Shown: one piece after another, positions 48,775 through 51,476 of the stretch | How the letters are laid out: each line of letters starts with the position of its first letter | Position numbering within the stretch: position 1 is the stretch's first letter | Assembly (NCBI GenBank): GCA_016199085.1 | Contig: JACQHJ010000007.1 | Span: 1-51,758 of the forward strand | DNA length: 51,758 nt | Reading direction: 5' to 3' | DNA from: Candidatus Levyibacteriota bacterium | Lineage (GTDB): Bacteria > Patescibacteriota > Microgenomatia > Levybacterales > UBA12049 | Program-made: the position numbers and the translations under genes | Notes under the pieces: model-generated | The model's database searches: none | What the model was told of the DNA's origin: nothing | The model's input: the letters and a program-made list of their open reading frames with translations, nothing else

Positions 48775-48847
48775 ACCCAGCTCGCGTACCACTTTAACCG
48801 GCGAACAGCCGGACCCTTGGAAGCTTCTCCACCTCCAGGATGTGATG

Positions 48848-49142
48848 CACATTCTCCCTTATTACTAAAGGTGTAGACTATATCTTCCCCGTCTAAATAT
48901 AAGTACGGGGTTGGCGTATTATTCTCATTTAAAAAATGAGGATCTCATCTTAATAAACTATAAAACTAGTTTATTAAAGAATCAGTCGTTACGGGGTCAA
49001 AAGTTTAAAACTTCGACTTCCCACGGTATTGTCCATTGACTTTCTAATTTGAGAAGTTTTACCCTGTCAATTAGGAGTCCACCGTTATTAGCCACTTTGC
49101 TTCAGTAATTACTTACTGAAGGGCCCAAGCGCTTTCGCGCAA
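48848..49142 (-). ncRNA. Group I intron, about E. coli site 2511, no ORF (295 nt)
   Basis: Exon join TGTCGGCT|CATCACATCC; GACCCCGTAACGACTGATTC and GGGGAAGATATAGTCTAC core elements. Confidence 0.88.
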
Positions 49143-49153
49143 AGCCGACATCG

Positions 49154-49432
49154 CTCGTAATCTTTTGTTACCAAAAGCCCTGACTATACCTTCATCCTCT
49201 TTTTAGAGGAGCTAGTCGTTTATAGAAGTGTAAAAACTTCTATCCTCCACTTTTATAGTGGAAAGTCGATACGGGGTCTGCAAAAACAGACTTCCCTCGG
49301 TGTTGTCCAAAAATACTTTTTGGAGTTCACCGATTTTGACTAGTATTTCTTCTTATCTCACCTTCTCTAATGATGTTATAAGAATACAGACTTATAAATT
49401 ACTCTATAGGCGCCCCGATGTTATAAAACATA
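49154..49432 (-). ncRNA. Group I intron, about E. coli site 2500, no ORF (279 nt)
   Basis: Exon join GGCACCT|CGATGTCGG; GACCCCGTATCGACT and GGATGAAGGTATAGTC core elements. Confidence 0.88.
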
Positions 49433-49459
49433 AGGTGCCAAACCGCATCGTCGCTGTGG

Positions 49460-50290
49460 CAATTAACCCACAATCTCTTGTGGAATTAGACTATATCTTT
49501 ATCCTTTTCAGGATACCAACATATGATAACTCTTGGATTTTTGCAAAAATGCAAATATTGAGCTATCTCAATCTCAAACTCTTGAGATATCAGTCGTTAC
49601 GGGGATAATTTGTAAAGCATACTTGGAATCATATATGGATTTATCAATTTCTTTAGCAAATTCATACTGGAACCTGCAATTCGTAATCGATATTTTCCTC
49701 TGTCTACATTAATTGTAGATTTAATTCCAAATTTAGCCTGTAGAAACTTAATTAACCAGAGATTTTCTTCTAATGAGAAAGAATGCGTATTAATGCGCAA
49801 TTGATTCTTATCAGCTGCTCCATCATCCATAATCCAAATCGCTAAAGCAAAAGGATCGAAGTTATCCCTCAAAAATATTTTTGGAATAACTTTTTTACGA
49901 TCACTATAAAAATTACTTCGCAATTTAGTTAATAATGGATGGGAAACCGTTCTGAAATAATAAGCATTTCCGCTTCTTTTAGGTTTGGAATTAACAAAAC
50001 TACTGATAAGAGAATATTTAAAGTCTACGTATTCTTTTTGAGAAATCCCATGATGAATGCGTAGAGAATATCCTCTCGTAGTTGTGTCTAAATACCCATC
50101 CCCTAAAATTGAACCAATGATAAACATTAGTTGTTCTTGGGAAAAACTTAATTTTCTTGCTTCTCTAGCTAATCTTGTATCCACAACAAATTATCTTCCC
50201 TCGGTATTATCCTATCATAAAATGACAGGATTTCACCGATATTAGTTGATTCGTTCATCCCGATATTACTATCGAGTGGCGCCAAATTTG
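49460..50290 (-). ncRNA. Group I intron with LAGLIDADG ORF, about E. coli site 2473 (831 nt)
   Basis: Exon join ATCCAAGCGT|CCACAGCGACG; CCCCGTAACGACTGATATC and AAAGATATAGTCTAATTCC core elements. Confidence 0.88.
49597..50184 (-). CDS. LAGLIDADG homing endonuclease (two motifs)
   Basis: LMFIIGSILGDGYLDTTT and FALAIWIMDDGAADKNQLRINTHSFS. Confidence 0.9.
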   Translation of the reverse strand: MDTRLAREARKLSFSQEQLMFIIGSILGDGYLDTTTRGYSLRIHHGISQKEYVDFKYSLISSFVNSKPKRSGNAYYFRTVSHPLLTKLRSNFYSDRKKVIPKIFLRDNFDPFALAIWIMDDGAADKNQLRINTHSFSLEENLWLIKFLQAKFGIKSTINVDRGKYRLRIAGSSMNLLKKLINPYMIPSMLYKLSP

Positions 50291-50791: not shown

Positions 50792-51476
50792 CACGATAAT
50801 CCTCAATTACTTGAGGCGTAGACTATATCTTCACCTAATACTTTTAGAAGTTCTTGCTTTTTATATCTTCTTGCTCCTAAACCATTCATTTGATATGAAA
50901 GTGTCACGATTTCTTTTAAAGTTTCCTGTTTTAAATGTTTACCTTCATATACCATTTGGCATATTACCGCAAACTTTTCAAACTCTTTCTTTTTTGAAGA
51001 AAGTAATGGATACTTTTGAAAGTGTGGAATCACTTTTTGCATCAAATCTTTTATACTTCTGACTTCATACTTGAAAGTTCTGTCGCTTGGATTTCGTCGA
51101 ATAGTTCCACAATCAAAAAATTGTCGAAATAATTCCAACACTTCTTGACGGTCACTATTTTGTGAAACCGAAAAGCTTGGTCGAACTTCAAGTAAAGTCT
51201 TAAGTTTTGGTCTTGGAGAAAAAGAAATACAAAAACTTCCTTCTCCATCGGCATATCCTGAAAGATAATTACCAATGGAAACAATATTAAATGCTGGCGT
51301 GTTAGGCATAATTAAAGTATGCCTCTGACTCCTAAAAGAGTCAAGTCGTTACAGGGTCACTTCAATAAATTGAAGGACTTACCCACGGTATTACCCTTAT
51401 TTTAACACCTCACCTTGTTATTGAGGCAACATAATAGGGCTTCACCGTTTTAAGCCAGTTACGGGTTTGTATTCTT
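50792..51476 (-). ncRNA. Group I intron with LAGLIDADG ORF, about E. coli site 1951 (685 nt; ends +/-2 nt)
   Basis: Exon join TTGTCGGGC|GAGTTCCGACC; GACCCTGTAACGACTTGACTC and GGTGAAGATATAGTCTACGCC core elements. Confidence 0.85.
50803..51309 (-). CDS. LAGLIDADG homing endonuclease (single-motif LAGLIDADG_1 type)
   Basis: IGNYLSGYADGEGSFCISFSPRPKLKTLLEVRPSFSVSQNSDRQEVLELFRQFFDCGTI. The likely functional start is ATG 51309. Confidence 0.9.
   Translation of the reverse strand: MPNTPAFNIVSIGNYLSGYADGEGSFCISFSPRPKLKTLLEVRPSFSVSQNSDRQEVLELFRQFFDCGTIRRNPSDRTFKYEVRSIKDLMQKVIPHFQKYPLLSSKKKEFEKFAVICQMVYEGKHLKQETLKEIVTLSYQMNGLGARRYKKQELLKVLGEDIVYASSN

Follow-up and report, generated by a model that had tools for sequence, protein, structure and literature searches.

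Short rRNA exons between group I introns

Exons of only a few nucleotides between group I introns are known from several systems, and rRNA exons as short as the one analyzed here have precedents. In the lichen fungus Physconia perisidiosa, introns are reported at both S1506 and S1516, which leaves an exon of 10 nt, and the authors propose that the fungal introns at these sites spread through reverse splicing (PMC1299323). In the cyanobacterium Synechococcus sp. C9, the reported introns at L1917 and L1931 leave an exon of 14 nt by E. coli numbering (PMC1995217). Both lengths are differences of the E. coli site numbers. Exons of 34 and 23 nt are described between the tandem group I introns of the Coxiella burnetii 23S rRNA gene and of phage Twort Orf142 (PMC10136302). 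The shortest of these exons, in placozoan cox1, is a single nucleotide between two group I (IB) introns, and its retention was seen by RNA-seq (PMC5436844). For CPR bacteria, Tsurumaki et al. 2024 (PMC11270868) report that 82% of the 23S rRNA genes studied carry insertions, as many as 16 in one gene, with group I introns clustered around the domain V peptidyl transferase centre and LAGLIDADG endonucleases common among them. The main text of that paper does not contain the site numbers 2500 or 2511.

The DNA analyzed here is a contig of 51,758 nt (the window) from a Candidatus Levyibacteriota bacterium, in which group I introns at L2500 and L2511 enclose an 11-nt exon of the 23S rRNA gene. The small genome, the many introns of its 23S rRNA gene and the occurrence of this intron pair in Microgenomates and Daviesbacteria genomes likewise point to a probable member of the CPR (Patescibacteria). 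The original prediction knew of no natural rRNA exon this short, a view that the 10-nt case overturns. As in the window, a single rRNA gene at the published P. perisidiosa locus holds two group I introns, and the exon is one nucleotide shorter; unlike the window, this is a eukaryotic nuclear SSU rRNA gene. The Synechococcus sp. C9 locus, as described, shares with the window a bacterial 23S rRNA gene and two group I introns (PMC1995217), but the sites are other ones, the exon is 3 nt longer and both introns encode LAGLIDADG proteins. One of the loci that we compared (L178) has insertions at L1917 and L1931, and hence a 14-nt exon with the same spacing as in Synechococcus sp. C9. The Coxiella and Twort exons are longer, and their skipping was reported (PMC10136302). 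Placozoan cox1 likewise holds a micro-exon between group I introns, but in a mitochondrial protein-coding gene (PMC5436844).

Exon structure of the 23S rRNA gene

The gene was parsed on the minus strand of the window by direct comparison with E. coli rrlB (Table 1). The contig stops inside the gene and the parse covers its 3′ part, which contains six introns. An independent spliced-alignment script, to which the parse was not supplied, found the same sites: L2473 (831 nt), L2500 (279 nt), L2511 (295 nt) and L2584 (257 nt). The lengths originally predicted for the 27-, 11- and 73-nt exons were confirmed in the direct alignment as E. coli 2474-2500, 2501-2511 and 2512-2584. The fourth predicted exon, 28 nt and equal to E. 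coli 1924-1951, was reproduced in length by the script, which placed it between L1924 and L1952, with its end positions ambiguous by about 1 nt.

Table 1. Features at the 11-nt exon, in window coordinates; exon numbers follow E. coli 23S rRNA.
Feature	Position	Strand	Details	Basis
23S exon, 27 nt	49433..49459	(-)	E. coli 2474-2500	E. coli comparison and spliced alignment
Group I intron L2500, 279 nt	49154..49432	(-)	without ORF; terminal omega-G at 49154	Rfam RF00028
P10 partner of L2500 intron	49416..49421	(-)	ACAUCG; pairs exon 2501-2506, 6/6	pairing comparison
Internal guide, P1 of L2500 intron	49409..49415	(-)	GGGCGCC	pairing comparison and fold
11-nt exon	49143..49153	(-)	CGATGTCGGCT; identical to E. 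coli 23S 2501-2511	
Use of the 11-nt exon	49143..49153	(-)	49153-49148 upstream-intron P10; 49147 free; 49146-49143 downstream-intron P1	
Group I intron L2511, 295 nt	48848..49142	(-)	without ORF; terminal omega-G at 48848	Rfam RF00028, relatives
P1 extension hairpin of L2511 intron	49129..49140	(-)	GCGC-GAAA-GCGC	arm compensation
Internal guide of L2511 intron	49122..49125	(-)	GGCC; pairs exon GGCU (2508-2511)	pairing and fold
23S exon, 73 nt	48775..48847	(-)	E. coli 2512-2584	E. coli comparison and spliced alignment

A further group I intron was found near L1923 (51538-51758, minus strand, 68.6 bits), and beyond it the contig breaks off, still inside the 23S rRNA gene. Two LAGLIDADG ORFs (49597-50184 and 50803-51309, both on the minus strand) lie inside the L2473 and L1951 introns; they belong to two Pfam families, LAGLIDADG_2 and LAGLIDADG_1.

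So many introns in the sequenced part, with the 5′ half of the gene outside the contig, could point to a decaying or non-functional 23S copy whose tandem introns are mis-spliced. We consider this very improbable, because the gene gives the only match to the bacterial LSU model in the assembly (939,047 bases, 10 contigs), its exons retain conserved sequence, and the same arrangement is present in two further genomes.

The exon CGATGTCGGCT includes the peptidyl-transferase residues A2503, U2504 and U2506. The chance expectation of one given 11-mer in the 585 nt that separate the flanking exons is about 1.4e-4 (585/4^11, calculated by hand). The original prediction had named an outcome that would speak against it, in which everything between the flanking exons is removed as one unit and the 11 nt are supplied from elsewhere. 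The assembly offers no place from which they could be supplied, as its 939 kb contain CGATGTCGGCT a single time.

Single-intron and double-intron relatives

The same region was compared in other genomes. At 17 loci the L2500 intron is present alone and 2501-2511 runs on into 2512, and at five loci (L133, L160, L162, L178 and L182) the L2511 intron is present alone. Both introns with the same 11-nt exon were found in two other genomes, L035 (GW2011_GWC1_46_15) and L135 (a Daviesbacteria MAG). The double-intron parse of L135 was read from the sequence, where the script gave one insertion, and the register of its L2511 intron, read by eye, differs from that of the script. For L123 the 5′ boundary given by the script was excluded.

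Because single and double states all exist, both exon boundaries are fixed from independent genomes, and the exact boundaries originally proposed are upheld, with single-intron relatives defining each side. The presence of two separate group I introns around the exon is likewise supported. From this we infer that the 11 nt are a true exon kept in the mature rRNA. The alternative that they are part of an intron was discarded, as relatives join them to 2512 or to 2500. A draft assembly in 10 contigs might also fuse two intron-bearing alleles into an artificial tandem; this is most improbable, given that in the two other genomes L2500 and L2511 introns of differing sequence enclose the same 11-nt exon.

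The frequency of the arrangement was estimated with sequence patterns. The end of the L2500 intron followed by 2501-2511 matched in 8 of 60 genomes, one being the window and the other seven continuous into 2512. In a sample of 384 genomes of the phylum, the pattern of the L2500 intron end plus non-C, a single exact pattern, matched only the window, and the pattern TGGCACCTCGATGTCGGCTD identified one L2511-only genome (G121). Judged by this sample and one exact pattern, the double-intron state is uncommon. In an exact-pattern scan of contigs combined with a check of the 23S context, L035 and L043 were, among the matches listed, 23S rRNA genes with both introns; most of the listed matches were due to chance. 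One locus (L157) has an insertion at L2504, between the L2500 and L2511 sites. Co-occupancy of L2504 and L2500, which would leave a 4-nt exon, was seen in none of the loci compared.

In full-length comparison, each window intron is closest to introns of its own site. Over its length, the L2500 intron shares about 67-69% identity with the L2500 introns of relatives L126-L129. The L2511 intron resembles the L2511 introns of other genomes, although within a short core region it also reaches 76% identity to one L2500 intron (L156). In L035, the tandem introns share a block that is 85-88% identical (88% over an 86-87 nt core) and at most 71% identical to any other intron compared, and this similarity suggests recombination or gene conversion between the neighbouring introns of that genome.

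The 11-nt spacing may be set by homing endonucleases, so that rRNA exons flanked by such introns would not fall below about 10-14 nt, a proposal that we regard as speculative and rather improbable. Under it, the L2511 target half-site GATGT (2502-2506) would mirror ACATC (2516-2520) about position 2511. With a half-site lying wholly within the 11 nt, the L2511 intron could home into a gene that already holds the L2500 intron.

Pairings on the 11-nt exon and splicing

The L2500 intron scored 51.7 bits with the RF00028 covariance model against a gathering threshold of 50, by which a catalytic core is recognized. It has a P1 with a U·G pair at the 5′ splice site, a terminal omega-G and a P10. The exon side of P1 is GGCACCU, the last 7 nt of the 27-nt exon, and in the fold its pair probability was 0.83-0.98 in both precursor states, except for an A-C mismatch at the fourth position. 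The pairings were compared in 20 L2500 introns, 17 present alone and three from the double state (window, L035 and L135). A perfect 6-bp P10 with 2501-2506 (G-U allowed), directly 5′ of the P1 guide, was present in 20/20. When random 23S positions served as the 3′ exon, the mean of the 20 introns was reached in 4 of 2000 trials, in a null that ignores kinship among the introns.

The L2511 intron scored 28.9 bits with RF00028 (E 4e-4), under the gathering threshold of 50; the L2511 intron of L132 is likewise under the cut-off (34.9 bits, E 6.4e-6), with the match in its 5′ part. The window intron has a P1 (GGCU/GGCC) with U·G at the 5′ splice site and a terminal omega-G. A P1 of 4-5 bp with 2508-2511 was found in all eight L2511 introns compared. 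The arms of the P1 extension covary: with arms chosen by hand from the sequences, own arms form 4/4 pairs in 7/7 introns vs 19% of swapped arms. No P10 with the 3′ exon (2512 onward) was recognized, as the eight introns have just 1-3 pairs there. P10 is common but not universal, and some group I introns can do without it.

It had been predicted that the two introns would conflict over the 11 nt, since the P1/P10 of the second intron would need bases from this same stretch. The P1/P10 model, a check suggested with the prediction, does not support this. The upstream P10 takes 2501-2506, the downstream P1 takes 2508-2511 and 2507 lies between them, so that 6 + 1 + 4 = 11 with zero shared bases; a P10 of the downstream intron would draw on 2512 onward instead. 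Ordered or coupled splicing, which the prediction derived from the conflict, is thus possible yet not required. No special coupling is needed, because the same pairings are found in single-intron relatives.

An obligatory order or coupled splicing, with both ribozymes unable to hold the 11-nt exon at once, is unlikely, although it deserves some weight. In the fold, the probability of the downstream P1 was 0.42-0.45 in the 685-nt precursor and 0.97-0.99 once the L2500 intron had been removed, and skipping of 34-nt and 23-nt exons that lie between tandem group I introns has been reported (PMC10136302). Against it, the footprints on the exon are disjoint, and the pairings are unchanged in single-intron relatives, with no sign of adaptation to the tandem state. 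The fold values hint weakly that the upstream intron may leave first, its excision freeing the downstream P1, in a method that cannot represent the P3/P7 pseudoknot. Pairing of either guide with the 5′ splice site of the other intron amounts to at most 2 bp in the window (by eye), and this weak cross-pairing should disfavour exon skipping. Two ribozymes of about 280 nt docked on 11 nt might still clash spatially, even without shared pairs.

It is very probable, on the evidence of the pairings and the relatives, that two ordinary introns flank a retained exon, have non-overlapping footprints and splice as in single-intron relatives. Two ordinary group I introns of different site-specific lineages would have filled the neighbouring sites L2500 and L2511, and with disjoint base-pairing footprints each would be excised as it is where it stands alone. 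We infer that splicing takes place, with each intron excised in a step of its own.

The arrangement is real and recurrent, and two ordinary introns in adjacent sites account for it. It provides, in at least three genomes, a natural substrate for learning how two ribozymes handle an exon that barely fits one P10 and one P1, with single-intron relatives as ready-made controls. The residues concerned are required by the ribosome to form peptide bonds.
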